Of a DNA stretch of 47,362 bases, positions 24,740 through 31,207 are shown piece by piece. The stretch's first letter is position 1; every line of letters starts with the position of its first letter. The notes below the pieces were generated by a model that saw only the letters and a program-made list of their open reading frames with translations, was not told the DNA's origin and searched no databases. The stretch comes from Actinomycetes bacterium (lineage in GTDB: Bacteria > Actinomycetota > Acidimicrobiia > Acidimicrobiales > RAAP-2): the NCBI GenBank assembly GCA_021779735.1, contig JAJYAC010000009.1:1-47362 (forward strand), read 5' to 3'. Made by a program: the position numbers and the translations under genes.

Positions 24740-24815
24740 GCCTGGGTAGCTCAGTCGGTAGAGCAGCGCATTCGTAATGCGCAGGTCAAGGGTTCGAATC
24801 CCTTCCCAGGCTCCA
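24740..24815 (+). tRNA. tRNA-Thr (anticodon CGT)
   Basis: Complete cloverleaf with acceptor GCCTGGG/CCCAGGC, discriminator T and encoded CCA (24813-24815). The anticodon stem GCGCA/TGCGC encloses TTCGTAA, giving CGT; the T-arm has GGTTCGAATCC. TAATCT at 24724-24729 is a -10 candidate just upstream. Confidence 0.95.
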
Positions 24816-24847: not shown

Positions 24848-26149
24848 CTAGTTCGCGTCGAGGAACGGCCGTACGTGCGCCGCGAAGTCCTCGCTTCTCT
24901 CGAGCCAGTTGCGGTAGCGGTCAAAACTGGGCGCCGCGGGCGAGAAGAGGACGACCCCGCCCCCGTGAAGCGCGGCGCGCGCGAGGCGAACCGCCTCGTC
25001 CATCGAAGACGCGCCGTGGGTACTCAGCTCAGTGCGCCTCGCGATCTCCTCGGCGAGGCGTTCGCCCGCGGGGCCCATCGTCACGACGCTAGTGAGTCGC
25101 GCGCGTCGCGCGAGGGCGTCGACGAGGACGCCGTAGTCGACTCCGCGATCAAAGCCCCCCGCGATGAGGGCGACGGGTTCGTCCTCGAAGACCTCGAGGG
25201 CCGCGACCGTGGGCAGCGCCGCGGTCGCGAGGCCGTCGTCGACGTAGCGAACGAGCCCGCTCTCTCGGGTCTCCTCGCCGAGCGGGGTGAGCCGTCCACG
25301 CAACGGCACGAAACTGCTCGCGTGGGCCATCGCGCTCGCTGCGACGCTCTCGCGGGAGCGGTGCGTCAGCGCGCCGACGACCGCGAGGGCGAGGGCCACG
25401 TTGCTCGCACTGTGGCGACCGAGGAGCCCGAGGGCGCGGACCAGTTCGTCGTAGCCAGGTTCTATCTCGACGACGTCGCCCCCGAGGAGGTCTCTCGCTA
25501 CCTGGGCCACGGCGCTCGCGACGAACGTGTGGTGCTCGCCGGGTGCGCGCGTGAGAGAGAGCTTGTCGCTCCAGTACTGCTCGAGCGAGCCGTGCCAGTC
25601 GAGGTGATCGCTGCCGAGCGAGGTGACGACGACCGTGGCGGGCGCCACGTCGAGATCAACGCTCTGAAAGCTCGACACCTCGAGGACGAGCCAGCCCTCG
25701 GCCGGCGCGTGCTCGGGATCGTAGGGTGGGCGACCGATGTTGCCCACACTCGTCGCCTCCTCGTCGAGGCAGTTGAGGAAGAACGTGATGAGGCTTGTCG
25801 TGGTGGACTTTCCCTTGGTGCCGGTGACCGCGACGACGCGCTCGCGGTCGGTGTCGTGCAGCCACAGGTTGAGAGCCGACGTCACCGCCACGCCGGCCGC
25901 TTCAAGGGCGAGGACGTCGGAGCGACGTCGCGCGATGCCGGGACTCTTGAGAACGACGTCGCAGCCCAGGAGAGCCTCGAGTCCGCCCTCGTTCGTCCGG
26001 TGGGCCTCGTCGGCGAGGTCGGCGTCATCGACGATGATGAGCCGCGCGACGCCCTCGAGGCGCCGAGCGCTGGCGCGGCCCTCGACGCCGAATCCGAAGA
26101 TCCCGACCGTCTTGCCGGCGAGATCAGCGAAGCCAGTGGGCCGGAACAC
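24848..26149 (-). CDS. murD2: Mur ligase, MurD2-type (UDP-MurNAc-L-alanine:L-glutamate ligase)
   Basis: A 433-residue Mur ligase. The N-terminal Rossmann-like domain starts VGIFGFGVEGRASARRL, the ATP loop is VTGTKGKSTTTSL, then LEVSSFQSV, SDHLDWHGS and the C-terminal ligase domain with VALIAGGFDRGVDYG and the LFSPAAPSFDRY ending typical of MurD. Ordinary MurD adds D-Glu. I assign the MurD2 form because the overlapping upstream gene is MurL, which works on the L-Glu product. The GTG at 26149 has GAGGA seven bases upstream and lies 26 bases inside murL. The assignment of L-Glu specificity is by context, not by residues. Confidence 0.8.
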   Translation of the reverse strand: MFRPTGFADLAGKTVGIFGFGVEGRASARRLEGVARLIIVDDADLADEAHRTNEGGLEALLGCDVVLKSPGIARRRSDVLALEAAGVAVTSALNLWLHDTDRERVVAVTGTKGKSTTTSLITFFLNCLDEEATSVGNIGRPPYDPEHAPAEGWLVLEVSSFQSVDLDVAPATVVVTSLGSDHLDWHGSLEQYWSDKLSLTRAPGEHHTFVASAVAQVARDLLGGDVVEIEPGYDELVRALGLLGRHSASNVALALAVVGALTHRSRESVAASAMAHASSFVPLRGRLTPLGEETRESGLVRYVDDGLATAALPTVAALEVFEDEPVALIAGGFDRGVDYGVLVDALARRARLTSVVTMGPAGERLAEEIARRTELSTHGASSMDEAVRLARAALHGGGVVLFSPAAPSFDRYRNWLERSEDFAAHVRPFLDAN

Positions 26150-27428
26150 GACTAGGTCCTCGGGGGGCGAGCAGGTCGTCGAGACTCGCGTGCGGGTGCA
26201 CGCGCGTCGCCAGCGTCGCGAGGTGCTCGACGTCGCGCCAGGACTCTTCGTGGGCCGTCGCCACGAGGGCGGCGCCACTCTCATCGGGGTCGCCGACGCA
26301 CTCGAAGGGCTTGGGCGTCTCGCCGAGGCCCACCAGCGTCTCGAGCTGGCTGAGCCGGTCCGGGTTCGCGAGGGGCTCGCTGTTAAAGATGTCCCCGAGC
26401 GCCTCACGCGAGAGGAAGGGGGCCAAGACGAGATTGATGAAGAGGCACTTGTCGCACTCGCCGCACCACGTCGGCGCTCGGCGCGACTGGTCCTGGGCGA
26501 ACGCGCGATTGCAGCTGCGAAATACCGGGTGGTACGCGAGAAGGTGGCTGAACCGCTCGGCGACCCACAGCTCGCTGCGATCGCGCAGTGCGCTCGCGAC
26601 GACGAGCCCCTCGACGACCTCGTCGATCGCGTCGGCGAGGAGGATCTCGGCGATGAGCGACTTGCTCCACTGGTGGTTGATCGGGCGCTGTCGCCAGGTG
26701 AGATTGGGGACCGAAGCTGAGTGCTCGTTGCTCATGACGACGCCCCCCCGCCCGGCGGCGACCGCCGCCGTCGCCGCGAGAAGCGTGACCATTGCGGTGA
26801 CCGGGACGTGGCCGTGGAAGAACGCCGGTCCTCCCGCGAGGAGACGCTCATCGAGTGAACGCGTCGCGCGCACCACGGGAAGTCCCGTCTGCGCCGCGGT
26901 CGCCTCAAGCGCGTCGAAGCGGCCACTGGCCGGCGAGACGACGAAGAGCTGTCGATCGAGAGAGGGGTTGAGCTCTTCAACGACCACGACCGAGTCGATG
27001 CCGCCGCCAAAGGGGACGAGCACGGCCCGTGGATCAAGTGGCGGCGCGTGGCGCCTCGCCGGCGTCCCACCGTCGATCGTGACGTTGTCGAGCGGGAGGT
27101 GATTGAGCACCGAGAACTCACCGAGCCCGTCGTGCAGGGCCGCGCTCAGCAGGACGCGCCCCGCGGGACCGACGGGGGTCTCGGCGAGATCGACGTGCAG
27201 CGCGGCGCCCGCCTTGTAGTACGAGAGCCCGGCGATGAGGTACCACAAGGTTGCCACCGCGCGGCTCGCGTCGTTGAGGTCGTCCACGCCCTCGAAGACC
27301 ACCGTCTCGGTGAAGTCGAGGTCGTCGAGACGGTAGTGGGCGAACAGGGTCGCGCCCGAGATCTCGAGGCCGCGGTACGAGAAGAGGGACGCTCGATGGC
27401 GCGGGCCGGGGGACATGGCGGCTCTCAT
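26124..27428 (-). CDS. murL: MurL-type epimerase (UDP-MurNAc-L-Ala-L-Glu epimerase)
   Basis: A 434-residue protein of the MurL family, which uses ATP to invert the terminal L-Glu of UDP-MurNAc-L-Ala-L-Glu to D-Glu. Visible are the PP-loop-like VLVPFGGGIDSVVVVEEL (about 140), a GRGGVVMSNEHSAS segment (about 225) and the cysteine cluster TWCGECDKCLF (about 320). This combination of an ATP-pyrophosphatase-like loop and a CGxCxKC motif fits MurL. The ATG overlaps the pgeF stop (ATGA), and the 3' end overlaps murD2. It would supply D-Glu without glutamate racemase. Whether murI also exists in this genome cannot be seen here. Confidence 0.82.
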   Translation of the reverse strand: MRAAMSPGPRHRASLFSYRGLEISGATLFAHYRLDDLDFTETVVFEGVDDLNDASRAVATLWYLIAGLSYYKAGAALHVDLAETPVGPAGRVLLSAALHDGLGEFSVLNHLPLDNVTIDGGTPARRHAPPLDPRAVLVPFGGGIDSVVVVEELNPSLDRQLFVVSPASGRFDALEATAAQTGLPVVRATRSLDERLLAGGPAFFHGHVPVTAMVTLLAATAAVAAGRGGVVMSNEHSASVPNLTWRQRPINHQWSKSLIAEILLADAIDEVVEGLVVASALRDRSELWVAERFSHLLAYHPVFRSCNRAFAQDQSRRAPTWCGECDKCLFINLVLAPFLSREALGDIFNSEPLANPDRLSQLETLVGLGETPKPFECVGDPDESGAALVATAHEESWRDVEHLATLATRVHPHASLDDLLAPRGPSRVPAHWLR

Positions 27429-28186
27429 GCTAGGACTCTCGCCACGAGGCCAAAGCGTCCGGTGGGCCGACTCGCGCGGTCGCTGAAGAAGGTCGCCCCC
27501 CCGTCGGTGACGTCGTGGGTGTAGGCGACGTGCGCGTCGGCGAGACCCGCGTCGCGCAGCCGCGCGAGAGCGACCGCGCGCAGGTCGAGACGAGAGCGGT
27601 CGCCGACGTCGGGGGACAGCGCTCCGCTCACCTCGGCGAAGTGAGCGGCGACCTCGGGGCCGACCTGATAGACGCGTGGTGAGACGCCCGGCCCCACGAC
27701 GGCGTGCACGCGACGCGGGTCGGCGAAGAGAGCCAGCGCGGCCTCGAGCACGCCCTCGTGCAGGCCACGCCAGCCCGCGTGCACGACGCCCGCACGTCGA
27801 GTGGTTTCGTCGACGAGCAAGACGGGTAGACAGTCGGCGACGAGCACCGCGATGGCGAGGTCGCGCGAGGACGTGACGAGTCCGTCGCCCTGGGCCGCGA
27901 CGGGATCGCGCACCTCGAGCACGGTCGCGCCGTGAACCTGGTCGAGAGTGGCGAGTCGCTCGGGCGCCACGCGCGCGGCTTCGCAGACGCGCGAGCGATT
28001 GATGGCGACGTGGCGTGCGCGGTCACCCACGTGCAGGCCCAGGTTCAGTGAGTCAAAGGGCGCCTCGCTGACACCGCCGGCTCGAGTGGTGAAAAACGCG
28101 TCGACCCCGAAGTCGCGCACGTGCGGCAGCGCCACCACGCGCAGTGCGCCACGACGCTCGGGGGCAAGAGTCAGTTCGACTGGCAC
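27425..28186 (-). CDS. pgeF: PgeF (YfiH/LACC1-family peptidoglycan editing factor)
   Basis: A protein of about 253 residues. The family is recognised by DAFFTTRAGGVSEAPFDSLNLG, the zinc-site TLDQVHGATV, VADCLPVLL, VVHAGWRGL and VGPGVSPRVYQVG. YfiH proteins are polyphenol-oxidase-fold enzymes. PgeF acts in peptidoglycan editing, by removing wrongly made UDP-MurNAc-L-Ser or related products, and purine nucleoside activity is reported for relatives. It precedes murL and murD2 in one overlapping operon, which agrees with a cell-wall role. The GTG at 28186 lies inside the 3' end of zur (16-base overlap); an in-frame GTG three codons upstream is also possible. Confidence 0.85.
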   Translation of the reverse strand: MPVELTLAPERRGALRVVALPHVRDFGVDAFFTTRAGGVSEAPFDSLNLGLHVGDRARHVAINRSRVCEAARVAPERLATLDQVHGATVLEVRDPVAAQGDGLVTSSRDLAIAVLVADCLPVLLVDETTRRAGVVHAGWRGLHEGVLEAALALFADPRRVHAVVGPGVSPRVYQVGPEVAAHFAEVSGALSPDVGDRSRLDLRAVALARLRDAGLADAHVAYTHDVTDGGATFFSDRASRPTGRFGLVARVLA

Positions 28187-28563
28187 GCCGGGCACACTCC
28201 GCTCAGCTCGAGAACGTGGCGCAGGTCGCGATAGCCATAGCGCGCGGCGATGTCGCGCGACCACAACTCGAGTTCTGGAGTGTCGACCTCGACGATGGCG
28301 CCGCAGGCGCTGCAGGCCAGGTGATGGTGGTGAGACTCGACCACACAGCGCCGAAAGAGGCTCTCACCGCGATTGGTCATGATGACGTCGACCTCGTGGT
28401 CGTCAGCCAGTCTCTTGAGCTGGGTGTAGACGGTGGCGAGTGAGATGCGTCCCCCCGAGCGCACGATGAGCGCGTGGAGCTCTTGGGCGCTGAGGAAGCC
28501 CTGGACGCGTCCGAGGGCCGCGATGACCTCTCGACGCTGGGCGGTGTTGCGCGTGCTTCCCAC
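28171..28563 (-). CDS. zur: Fur-family metal regulator, probably Zur
   Basis: A 130-residue Fur-family repressor. The winged helix covers about 1-80 (LSAQELHALIVRSGG, SLATVYTQLKRL). The dimerisation part has SHHHHLACSACG and a second pair in SGVCPACQSN, giving the structural four-Cys zinc site. The divergent neighbour is a zinc-type ABC transporter with a His-rich ATPase, so I call it Zur rather than Fur. GTG 28563 follows TACACT by six bases (leaderless). Its promoter lies next to a 13-bp palindrome that also sits in the znuA promoter, so both directions may be zinc-controlled. The stop lies inside pgeF, linking zinc sensing to a cell-wall operon. Confidence 0.85.
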   Translation of the reverse strand: MGSTRNTAQRREVIAALGRVQGFLSAQELHALIVRSGGRISLATVYTQLKRLADDHEVDVIMTNRGESLFRRCVVESHHHHLACSACGAIVEVDTPELELWSRDIAARYGYRDLRHVLELSGVCPACQSN

Positions 28564-28587: not shown

Positions 28588-28616
28588 TTGTTTTCTAGAA
28601 CGATTCTAAATATAGT
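28588..28616 (+). promoter_or_regulatory. znuA promoter (leaderless)
   Basis: TTGTTT (28588-28593), 17 bases, TATAGT (28611-28616), then seven bases to the ATG at 28624. Both boxes and the spacing are good, and transcription would begin at or next to the ATG. Confidence 0.65.
28596..28608. promoter_or_regulatory. Candidate Zur operator
   Basis: TAGAA, then CGA, then TTCTA form a perfect 13-base inverted repeat. It lies in the spacer of the znuA promoter and over the expected -35 of zur. Position and symmetry suit a Fur-family repressor; the exact consensus of this lineage is unknown. Confidence 0.5.
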
Positions 28617-28623
28617 AGTTGGA

Positions 28624-29517
28624 ATGGTTCTGAGAAACTACCGGTGGCCCGTGGCCGTGGGCGTCGTCGTCGTAGCGGTGGTCGCCACGATGCTCACCCT
28701 GGGCGCGCGCGGTCCTCGCTCCTCGACGCCGGTCGTGGTCTCGGGGGTCTCCCAGTGGGGCGCGCTCGCGCGCGCCGCCCTCGGCGCGCACGCGCACGTC
28801 GTGACGCTGCTGAGCGACCCGAACGCTGATCCACACTCTCACGAAGCCACGACCTCCGACGCCGCCTACGTCGACGAGGCGAAGATCGTCATCGAGAACG
28901 GCGCGGGCTACGACACGTGGCTCAGCCAACTGGTCAGCGCACGCTCCTCGCGCCCTTCAGTGATCAACGTCGCGTCACTCGTGGGGGTCAAGATCGGTTC
29001 GAACCCCCACCTCTTTTACGACGTCACCGCGGCGCGGCGCTTCGTCGAGGCTCTCGTGCGCGTCGCCCACGCCTCGAGCGACCCGTCCGTTTCTGCGAGC
29101 GCCGGAGCCGTCCTCGCGTCGCTGCGCGACCTCGAGGGTCAGGTCGCCTCACTGCGAACGCGCTGTCGCGGCGTGAACGTCGCGGCGACCGAGGACGTGA
29201 CGGGCTACCTGCTCGCCTCGCTGGGGCTCCACGTGATCACGCCGGAGTCGCTTCGCCTCGCGGTGGGCAACGGCGTCGACCCCTCAGTGGGCGCACTCGC
29301 CACGGCGCTCGATCAATTGCGTCACCATCCTGCGTTCCTCGTCAACAACACCCAGACCGCGACGCCCTTGACCAATGAGATGGTCAGCGTCGCCCGGCGA
29401 AACCACGTGCCCGTGATCGACGTCACCGAAACTCTCGTGGGCACGAACTACGTCACGTGGATACGTCATACGATTTCGTCGATGCGACGCGACCTGGTCC
29501 TCCAGGGGTGCGCGTGA
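28624..29517 (+). CDS. znuA: Metal ABC transporter substrate-binding protein (zinc, ZnuA-like)
   Basis: A 297-residue cluster A-I metal-binding protein with an N-terminal hydrophobic anchor (about 8-27) and no lipobox cysteine. Metal ligand candidates are His in LLSDPNADPHSH and NPHLFYDV, and Glu or Asp near VIDVTETLVG. The protein lacks the His-rich loop usual in ZnuA; that feature appears instead on the ATPase. The mRNA appears leaderless: TATAGT is seven bases before the ATG. The stop overlaps the znuC GTG. Manganese is the alternative substrate, but the zur neighbour favours zinc. Confidence 0.83.
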   Translation: MVLRNYRWPVAVGVVVVAVVATMLTLGARGPRSSTPVVVSGVSQWGALARAALGAHAHVVTLLSDPNADPHSHEATTSDAAYVDEAKIVIENGAGYDTWLSQLVSARSSRPSVINVASLVGVKIGSNPHLFYDVTAARRFVEALVRVAHASSDPSVSASAGAVLASLRDLEGQVASLRTRCRGVNVAATEDVTGYLLASLGLHVITPESLRLAVGNGVDPSVGALATALDQLRHHPAFLVNNTQTATPLTNEMVSVARRNHVPVIDVTETLVGTNYVTWIRHTISSMRRDLVLQGCA

Positions 29518-30386
29518 AGCCCCTCGAACTCGACGACGTCGCGGTGCACCTGGGCGACGCGACGATCTGGCGCCACGCCACGTTCGCCCTCGAGCCCGCC
29601 ACGATCACCGCGGTCCTCGGACCCAACGGAGCGGGAAAATCGACGTTGCTCAAGGTCATCCTCGGCCTCATCGAGCCGAGCGAGGGATCCCTACAGGTGC
29701 TGGGCGCACCGCCAGCGCGTGGCAACCCGCGCGTGGGCTACATGGCCCAGAGTCGTCACGCCGACTCGCTCAGTTCAATTACCGCTCGCGACTACGTCGG
29801 TTTGGGATTCGACGGGCCCCGCTTTGGCTGGGGGCGCTCTCGCGCCAAACGTGACGTGGTGGCGCGAGCCCTCGAGCTCACGGGAACGACGCACTACGCC
29901 GACCAGCCACTCAGCACCCTCTCGGGGGGTCAACGTCAGCGCGTCGCTCTCGCACACGCGGCCGTCTTTCGGCCCGATCTGCTGCTGCTCGACGAGCCAC
30001 TCGCCGGTCTCGACCTCGCCGCGCAGGCCGAGATCGTCGAGTTGATCAACCTCATTCGCGACACGACCGGCGCCGCGATCGTCGTCGTCGCCCACGACCT
30101 CAACCCGCTGGCCTCCGTCGTCGACTGCGTCTTGTGGATTGCTCGTCGCCAGGTGCGCTGCGGATCGGTCGACGAGGTGGTGAACGCGACCGTCTTGAGC
30201 GAGCTCTACGGTCACCCGATCGAGATCTTCACCACGGCGCGCGGTCGGCGCGTGATCGTGGGCCTCGAAGAGGAGTTCGCCCATCCCCACCCCCACGGCC
30301 ACGACCACGACCACGGCCACGACCACGAACACGAACATGACGACCTCGACCACGCCCACGATGGCGTCGCACCGGAGGCCCCGTGA
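29514..30386 (+). CDS. znuC: Metal ABC transporter ATPase with His-rich C-terminal tail
   Basis: A 290-residue ABC ATPase. Walker A is GPNGAGKST (about 40-48), the signature is LSGGQRQRVALAHA, Walker B is LLLLDEPLAGLD, and the switch His is in VVVAHDLNP. The last 35 residues alternate His with Asp, Glu, Pro and Gly, with 12 histidines. This tail could bind zinc in the cytosol as a buffer or a sensor limiting uptake. It joins znuA and znuB by GTGA overlaps on both sides. The start is the GTG within the znuA stop; longer starts upstream lack homology. Confidence 0.88.
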   Translation: MKPLELDDVAVHLGDATIWRHATFALEPATITAVLGPNGAGKSTLLKVILGLIEPSEGSLQVLGAPPARGNPRVGYMAQSRHADSLSSITARDYVGLGFDGPRFGWGRSRAKRDVVARALELTGTTHYADQPLSTLSGGQRQRVALAHAAVFRPDLLLLDEPLAGLDLAAQAEIVELINLIRDTTGAAIVVVAHDLNPLASVVDCVLWIARRQVRCGSVDEVVNATVLSELYGHPIEIFTTARGRRVIVGLEEEFAHPHPHGHDHDHGHDHEHEHDDLDHAHDGVAPEAP

Positions 30387-31207
30387 GCGTCTGGCAACTC
30401 CTCTCGACGCCCTTTGTCCAGAACGCCTTCTGGGCGGTGAGCGCGGTGGCCCTCGCGGCCGGCGCCGTGGGCTACTTCGTTGTCTTGCGTCGCCAGGCAT
30501 TCGCCGCGCACGCCATCGGCCACGTCGGCTTCGCGGGGGCGGCGGGGGCCGTCCTCGCGGGGCTCTCGCCGATCTTCGGCCTCCTGGTGTTTTGTCTCGG
30601 CGCGGGTCTCTTGATCGGGGTCGGCGGGGCCGACCTCGACGATCGAGACGCGGTCGTTGGCGTGACTCTCACCGCCGCGCTCGGATTGGGCGTCCTCTTC
30701 ATCTCGCTCTACAGCGGCTACGCGAACGCGACGTACTCGATCCTCTTCGGACAGATTTTGGGCGTGTCGTCGCGCGACCTCGTCATCGTGGCCCTCTTGT
30801 CGCTGGTCGTGCTCGTGAGCGTGTCGCTGACGTATCGACCACTGCTCTTCGCCTCGGTCGACGCGCAGTCAGCCGCGGCGCGGGGGCTCTCGACTCGTGT
30901 CATGTCGATCGTCTTCATGACCCTGCTCGCGGTGACGACGGTCGTGGCCATTCAGGTGGTGGGCGTGCTGCTCGTGTTCTCGCTGCTCGTCGCGCCGGCC
31001 GCCGCGGCGGAGGTTCTCACGAGGCGACCGCGCGACGCCATGTTCGCCGCGGTCGTCCTCGCGCTCTTTAGCGCCTGGGCGGGACTATTCCTCGGCGTGT
31101 GGCTCGGCGGGCCGGTGAGCTTTTGGATCACCGCGCTCGCGTCATCGGCCTACCTGGGCGCGCGCGTGCGCGCGAGTCTGCGTCGTCGCGTTCAACTCTC
31201 TGCGTAG
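30383..31207 (+). CDS. znuB: Metal ABC transporter permease (ZnuB-like)
   Basis: A 274-residue permease of the ABC-3 family with about eight membrane segments. Family motifs are HAIGHVGFAGAAGAV (about 47) and SLLVAPAAAAEVLTRRP (about 205). It forms the membrane channel of the zinc importer with ZnuC and ZnuA. The GTG overlaps the znuC stop (GTGA). The operon ends here; tilS begins nine bases later with its own -10 box inside the znuB 3' end. Confidence 0.9.
   Translation: MSVWQLLSTPFVQNAFWAVSAVALAAGAVGYFVVLRRQAFAAHAIGHVGFAGAAGAVLAGLSPIFGLLVFCLGAGLLIGVGGADLDDRDAVVGVTLTAALGLGVLFISLYSGYANATYSILFGQILGVSSRDLVIVALLSLVVLVSVSLTYRPLLFASVDAQSAAARGLSTRVMSIVFMTLLAVTTVVAIQVVGVLLVFSLLVAPAAAAEVLTRRPRDAMFAAVVLALFSAWAGLFLGVWLGGPVSFWITALASSAYLGARVRASLRRRVQLSA

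Follow-up and report, generated by a model that had tools for sequence, protein, structure and literature searches.

A predicted MurD2/MurL route to peptidoglycan D-glutamate with a candidate zinc link in a family of uncultured actinobacteria

We analyzed a 47,362-nucleotide stretch of DNA, here called the window (contig JAJYAC010000009.1 of assembly GCA_021779735.1, from an Actinomycetes bacterium of the order Acidimicrobiales, lineage RAAP-2), in which the genes zur, pgeF, murL and murD2 lie on the minus strand from position 28563 down to 24848. The best explanation of this locus, to which we assign a probability of roughly two in three as a whole, including the zur link and the predicted fold of MurL, is that the lineage has lost glutamate racemase (MurI) and that MurD2 and MurL form the D-glutamate (D-Glu) branch of its peptidoglycan precursor synthesis. 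In Xanthomonas, Micromonospora and Salinispora, MurD2 ligates L-Glu and MurL then inverts it while converting ATP to AMP (PMC8788868, PMC5808125), and we have high confidence, judging from sequence, that the window genes encode the same rare route. In the proposed pathway, MurC would yield UDP-N-acetylmuramoyl-L-alanine (UDP-MurNAc-L-Ala), PgeF would remove mischarged UDP-MurNAc-L-Ser, MurD2 would attach L-Glu, and MurL would use ATP to activate the carboxylate of that Glu, with release of AMP, and invert the residue to D-Glu. These are the activities that we infer for MurD2, MurL and PgeF here. The four genes are as follows.

28171..28563, minus strand: zur, a FUR-family zinc-uptake repressor of 130 amino acids with a GTG start (Pfam FUR, 2e-25)
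27425..28186, minus strand: pgeF, a YfiH/YlmD-type UDP-MurNAc-peptide editing amidase (Pfam Cu-oxidase_4, 2e-59)
26124..27428, minus strand: murL, a predicted QueC/QatC-like PP-loop enzyme with a four-cysteine (Cys4) cluster (NCBIfam MurL, 1e-72)
24848..26149, minus strand: murD2, with a GTG start at 26149 (murD model TIGR01087, 252 bits against a cut-off of 212)

The first-pass annotation of this DNA had read these genes as one overlapping unit, and the junctions agree with that reading: in our reading of the sequence, zur shares 16 nt with pgeF, pgeF shares 4 nt (ATGA) with murL, and murL shares 26 nt (26124-26149) with murD2. The start of pgeF is a GTG at 28186, and its open frame extends to 28264. 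In a comparison set of 80 related loci, which reaches through the Acidimicrobiia and beyond, pgeF-murL-murD2 is a stable core. Of the 79 gene pairs in which the overlap of murL with murD2 was counted, 54 share exactly 26 nt, as far as Blastococcus and Modestobacter (Geodermatophilaceae), and because this length recurs so often it is not a matter of chance; a fixed overlap of this kind suggests that translation of MurL and MurD2 is coupled. The pgeF gene at this locus is the only copy in the genome. Since pgeF lies at ftsZ/yggS in most relatives (26 of the 30 pgeF loci sampled in the order), the window pgeF has left the division and cell wall (dcw) cluster and joined murL. The coupling of pgeF and zur with murL-murD2, which the first-pass annotation had also remarked on, is likewise conserved across relatives.

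The case for the loss of the racemase begins with the genome itself. That annotation had proposed an L-Glu-then-epimerise route and had advised looking elsewhere in the genome for murI and a second murD; a profile search of the assembly found neither, and the proposal is borne out by the mutual exclusion of MurL and MurI described below. Five proteins with Mur-ligase domains are encoded (MurE, a MurF-like protein, FolC, MurC and the window MurD2), and MurD2 is the only MurD-type ligase among them. The dcw cluster is intact, with genes that we take to be, in some cases from position, ftsI, murE, mraY, ftsW, murG, murC, murB, ftsQ, ftsZ, yggS and sepF; the interval from mraY to ftsW holds no murD, and that from ftsZ to yggS no pgeF. 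In a class-wide survey of 148 genomes, 15 carried MurL, among them all 12 that were sampled from the window's family, and MurI scored above its cut-off in 95; no genome held both. One MurL genome has a 29-bit MurI match, set against a cut-off of 147, and MurI is also absent from two further MurL-bearing genomes of the order.

Two observations stand apart from this argument. The genomes of family f15 and genomes G134 and G168 are nearly complete and gave no MurI match; MurL was searched for in G134 and G168 and is absent, and the f15 genomes are not among the 15 that carry MurL. The sole MurF-like ligase of the assembly (L002:1051-2613, contig C46) lies outside the dcw cluster, has an N-terminal membrane-like segment and scores 184 against a murF cut-off of 289.

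What kind of enzyme is MurL? The protein has been described as lacking known conserved domains (PMC8788868, PMC5808125). The window copy matches the NCBIfam MurL model NF041275 at 1e-72 over 26-438 of 447 positions and scores 245 bits against a 700-bit cut-off, the model being a Xanthomonadales-specific equivalog. Across 78 MurL sequences, the invariant residues include a GGGxDS loop and four cysteines, C306, C322, C325 and C328 (C-x15-C-x2-C-x2-C). The Xanthomonas sacchari copy, compared alongside them and 34% identical to the window MurL, carries both as well, and the window protein has every residue that is invariant in the family. Sequence-only searches against PDB, Pfam and PADLOC returned nothing useful. 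An AlphaFold2 model of MurL (mean predicted local distance difference test score, 94.7) was aligned with VIA-align to known structures and resembled QatC most closely (Z 17.9 over 310 residues), followed by QueC (13.9) and Cap9 (13.6); the next PP-loop match was ArgG (Z 10.6), with other PP-loop enzymes at about 10 and below. The top matches in a viral structure library were also QueC, that is, 7-cyano-7-deazaguanine synthases. Foldseek of the model against a PDB library gave no match with an E-value below 0.001, and closer alignment of the same candidates led to QueC and QatC.

QueC is a zinc enzyme with an SGGxDS loop and a C(x)8CxxCxxC cluster that binds the zinc, a variant of which QatC retains (PMC13329287). 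It uses ATP to activate a carboxylate (PMC13279940), in agreement with the proposal that MurL activates a carboxylate with formation of AMP. From the model and the conserved motifs, MurL is probably a QueC-like enzyme with a structural or catalytic zinc. A search of one literature library found no paper linking MurL to QueC or QatC, and we regard the QueC-like fold and cysteine cluster as the most useful new lead from this locus. It is possible that a zinc bound by the Cys4 cluster is the biochemical reason for the link to Zur. Separately, an orphan MurL-like protein on the Pseudonocardia plasmid pLS1-1 (L094:3459-4865) carries the cysteine cluster together with a perfect SGGKDS loop and has no murD neighbour, and relatives of MurL may therefore epimerise or modify other peptides.

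The first-pass annotation had looked to PgeF for the explanation of zinc control, as a zinc-site protein, and this idea is not supported. PgeF aligns with YfiH/YlmD structures and has the QVHG, ADCLPV and HAGW motifs with the catalytic Cys and His residues (137.5 bits against TIGR00726, just below the cut-off of 141). YfiH is an amidase with a Cys107-His124-Asp89 triad, and the paper on its structure and function mentions neither zinc nor metal (PMC8844914). PgeF was accordingly rejected as the zinc-requiring member of the unit, and the predicted MurL cluster makes MurL the better candidate.

The zinc link is based on the sequence between zur and a divergent zinc importer of the ATP-binding cassette (ABC) type, znuA-znuC-znuB, which begins 60 bp from zur on the opposite strand. 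Beyond znuB lie tilS, hpt, folE and folP.

28597..28607, no strand assigned: predicted Zur box 2, AGAACGATTCT, centred 39 nt upstream of the zur start codon in the zur -35 region
28621..28631, no strand assigned: predicted Zur box 1, GGAATGGTTCT, overlapping the znuA start codon
28624..29517, plus strand: znuA, zinc-binding lipoprotein/solute-binding protein, divergent from zur (Pfam ZnuA, 1e-28)
29457..30386, plus strand: znuC, zinc ABC transporter ATPase (Pfam ABC_tran, 4.8e-28; AztA/ZnuC-type NCBIfam matches); 29457 is an open-frame boundary, and the true start is probably at about 29520
30383..31207, plus strand: znuB, zinc ABC transporter permease (Pfam ABC-3, 1.2e-51; AztB, 8e-40)
24740-24815, plus strand: tRNA-Thr, converging on the end of murD2

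Paired 11-bp palindromes of the RGAAYSRTTCY type, counted with at most two departures from the pattern per pair, lie exactly 24 bp apart in all 25 loci with an orthologous zur, the window included, and in 20 of these loci the centre of box 2 stands 39 nt ahead of the zur start codon. Among the 80 loci, the strict pattern occurs at the zur-znuA site and almost nowhere else, and it is absent from loci that lack an orthologous zur. A strict scan of the window's own genome found six sites, two of which are the boxes described here, against two for a reversed control pattern. The four further sites were considered as a wider Zur regulon and set aside as chance, given the two control matches and given that none lies clearly before a zinc-type gene. 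Upstream of zur, a TACACT -10-like element stands 6 nt before the GTG, and orthologues carry TANNCT at 6 to 7 nt upstream of the start, a position which suggests that zur transcripts are likely leaderless.

In the mechanism that we propose, Zur would bind the two palindromes in the 60-bp gap and repress znuABC, and the same operators would govern the promoter from which transcription continues through zur into pgeF-murL-murD2. A zur gene that lies in an operon is commonly autoregulated (PMC6103462), and because zur overlaps pgeF, a transcript begun at the promoter under Zur control most likely extends into the wall genes. The wall genes would thus share in the autoregulation of Zur, and their expression would rise in zinc shortage. 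Zur binding, read-through and the physiological benefit to the cell are all predicted here, as is control of the wall genes by Zur in vivo, and it is the arrangement of the coupling that appears structurally conserved. A fuller version, in which the zur promoter drives pgeF-murL-murD2, MurL is a zinc-containing QueC-type enzyme, and zinc status sets an essential precursor branch with the epimerase raised in zinc shortage, is tentative and, taken in full, rather doubtful.

The distribution of regulators among relatives makes the link between Zur and the wall genes more than an accident of one genome. In a clade of 39 MurL loci (support of 99 in the Shimodaira-Hasegawa-like approximate likelihood ratio test), a FUR-family gene lies directly upstream of pgeF-murL-murD2 in 34. 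This gene is an orthologous zur in 24 loci, mostly with a divergent znuABC; in five others it is a different FUR protein beside znuABC, and in another five a ZIP zinc transporter gene and a FUR gene are co-directional with pgeF-murL-murD2. The alternative FUR loci (L021, L033, L034, L037 and L077) share the palindrome TGAGACTGAGTCTCA, conserved perfectly, between znuA and the FUR gene of the other subfamily, and in the ZIP loci TGAAAATGGTTTTCA or AATGATAATCATT precedes the ZIP gene; each form of the locus therefore has a FUR-type operator before the unit. Outside the clade, L059, a lineage of its own, has both zur and znuABC at this position. In L012 (6469-6771, minus strand) and L013, znuABC has been replaced by a divergent membrane open reading frame of about 100 amino acids with no Pfam match, which is possibly a new small membrane protein under Zur control.

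Several observations weigh against our explanation of the locus, touching the D-Glu route, the fold of MurL and the zinc link alike. The absences of MurI and a second MurD rest on an incomplete assembly (1.71 Mb, 88.7% complete), and eleven members of the window's family that are 96-97% complete agree in lacking both. The QueC Pfam model PF06508 matched none of 45 MurL family members at E-values up to 1, which is why we call MurL QueC-like and not a member of PF06508. The hhalign alignment of MurL with a QueC profile is weak (probability 9.8, E 0.0033), and it pairs exactly the cysteine clusters. The presence of zur is already explained by the divergent znuABC, with no link to the wall needed. 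Five of the 39 clade loci have no regulator, the tree implying at least three independent losses, and keep pgeF-murL-murD2; as these five also lack the boxes, the pathway does not need zinc control. Finally, an internal promoter within zur could drive the wall genes independently of zinc, and MurD2 departs from the Xanthomonas oryzae enzyme at one specificity residue, considered below.

Those points that concern zinc make up the strongest rival explanation, which we judge to have somewhat less than an even chance of being correct: the zur-znuABC cassette sits between tilS and pgeF by neighbourhood only, Zur controls znuABC and itself, and most wall-gene expression comes from an internal promoter, with no meaningful effect of zinc. 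It would account for distant lineages that have pgeF-murL-murD2 without zur (L050, L052, L067, L071 and L073-L076; in L052, L067 and L073 no regulator lies upstream of the unit), and the two boxes sit more directly over the znuA promoter than over that of zur, with box 2 lying between the znuA promoter elements. Yet the overlap of zur and pgeF leaves no room for a promoter except within coding sequence, the ZIP loci place ZIP, fur, pgeF, murL and murD2 in one direction behind a single operator-like promoter, and L012 and L013 keep zur and both boxes though znuABC is gone. The zinc control put forward by the first-pass annotation has gained conserved paired boxes on a promoter predicted to read into the unit, and it stays a prediction; znuABC, which that annotation had not mentioned, explains zur, and several relatives keep pgeF-murL-murD2 with no regulator.

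It is improbable that the FUR-family gene encodes a sensor of iron, manganese or peroxide instead of zinc. No NCBIfam Zur model reaches its cut-off, and several Fur/PerR models outscore the enterobacterial Zur model; the nearest solved structures by far, however, are actinobacterial Zur proteins (1e-30 to 1e-35), namely the Streptomyces coelicolor metal uptake regulator 3mwm (6.6e-35) and Mycobacterium tuberculosis Zur/FurB 2o03, with whose Cys and His positions those of the window protein align. The gene is also divergent from znuABC, and the AT-S-AT centre of the predicted boxes matches the S. coelicolor Zur box, tGaNNatSatNNtCa, of which znuA in that species has two (PMC5472717).

Least probable of all is that MurD2 is an ordinary D-Glu-adding MurD supplied from an unrecognised source, such as a D-amino acid aminotransferase or uptake, with MurL as a minor or inactive partner: the one aminotransferase candidate of the right superfamily scores 125 bits against a cut-off of 277, a generic level reached by 12 of 14 control genomes, and both the intact MurL and its mutual exclusion with MurI argue against it. 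The specificity residues of MurD2 bear on the same question. In X. oryzae MurD2, Glu197 and Arg358 set the specificity for L-Glu (PMC8788868), and the specificity residues (Glu197, Arg358, Pro433 and Phe435) are known only from Xanthomonas and were not taken as defining. The window MurD2 has Asp at the Glu197 position, as canonical MurD does, but it keeps the Arg, Pro and Phe at the later positions and has Leu at the position of the K319 lysine; alteration of that lysine enabled MurD enzymes to use L-Glu. Asp is shared by 66 of 69 relatives encoded beside murL, and it may be either neutral in this branch or compensated.

If the explanation that we favor, a MurD2/MurL route linked to Zur, is correct, zinc sensing extends beyond wall hydrolases to wall precursor synthesis across an entire family of uncultured, abundant actinobacteria, and zinc supply may tune an essential wall-building step. 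The fold assignment would supply a mechanism that can be tested for an epimerase hitherto described without a recognisable domain; MurL and MurD2 have been discussed as narrow-spectrum antibiotic targets (PMC8788868).

The closest known systems are the MurD2/MurL loci of X. oryzae (XOO_1319/1320) and of Micromonospora and Salinispora, which likewise have adjacent, overlapping murL-murD2 genes of the same families and no MurI (PMC8788868, PMC5808125). The PP-loop and Cys4 motif of X. sacchari MurL are identical to those of the window protein; unlike the window, the Xanthomonas locus has no zur or pgeF neighbour. With QueC, QatC and Cap9, MurL shares the predicted fold, a GGGxDS phosphate-binding loop, a C-x(n)-C-x2-C-x2-C cluster and, as proposed for MurL, ATP-driven carboxylate activation (PMC13329287, PMC13279940; neither paper mentions MurL), whereas MurL has no PF06508 match, its loop begins with G and not S, and the predicted reaction is epimerisation rather than amide or nitrile formation. 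The zur-znuABC arrangement resembles the Streptomyces divergon in its actinobacterial Zur, its znuABC target, the two znuA boxes, the 7-1-7 palindromes and the AT-S-AT centre (PMC5472717), but the outer box letters differ (GGAATCATTCC type), and the window zur runs into peptidoglycan precursor genes. Known links between Zur and the wall concern hydrolases, and a review of Zur has no cell-wall entry (PMC6103462). In Vibrio cholerae, the response to zinc starvation also reaches the cell wall through Zur (PMC6381278). There, the target is ShyB, a periplasmic endopeptidase that replaces a zinc-dependent one, whereas the window genes would place predicted Zur control on essential precursor synthesis in the cytoplasm.

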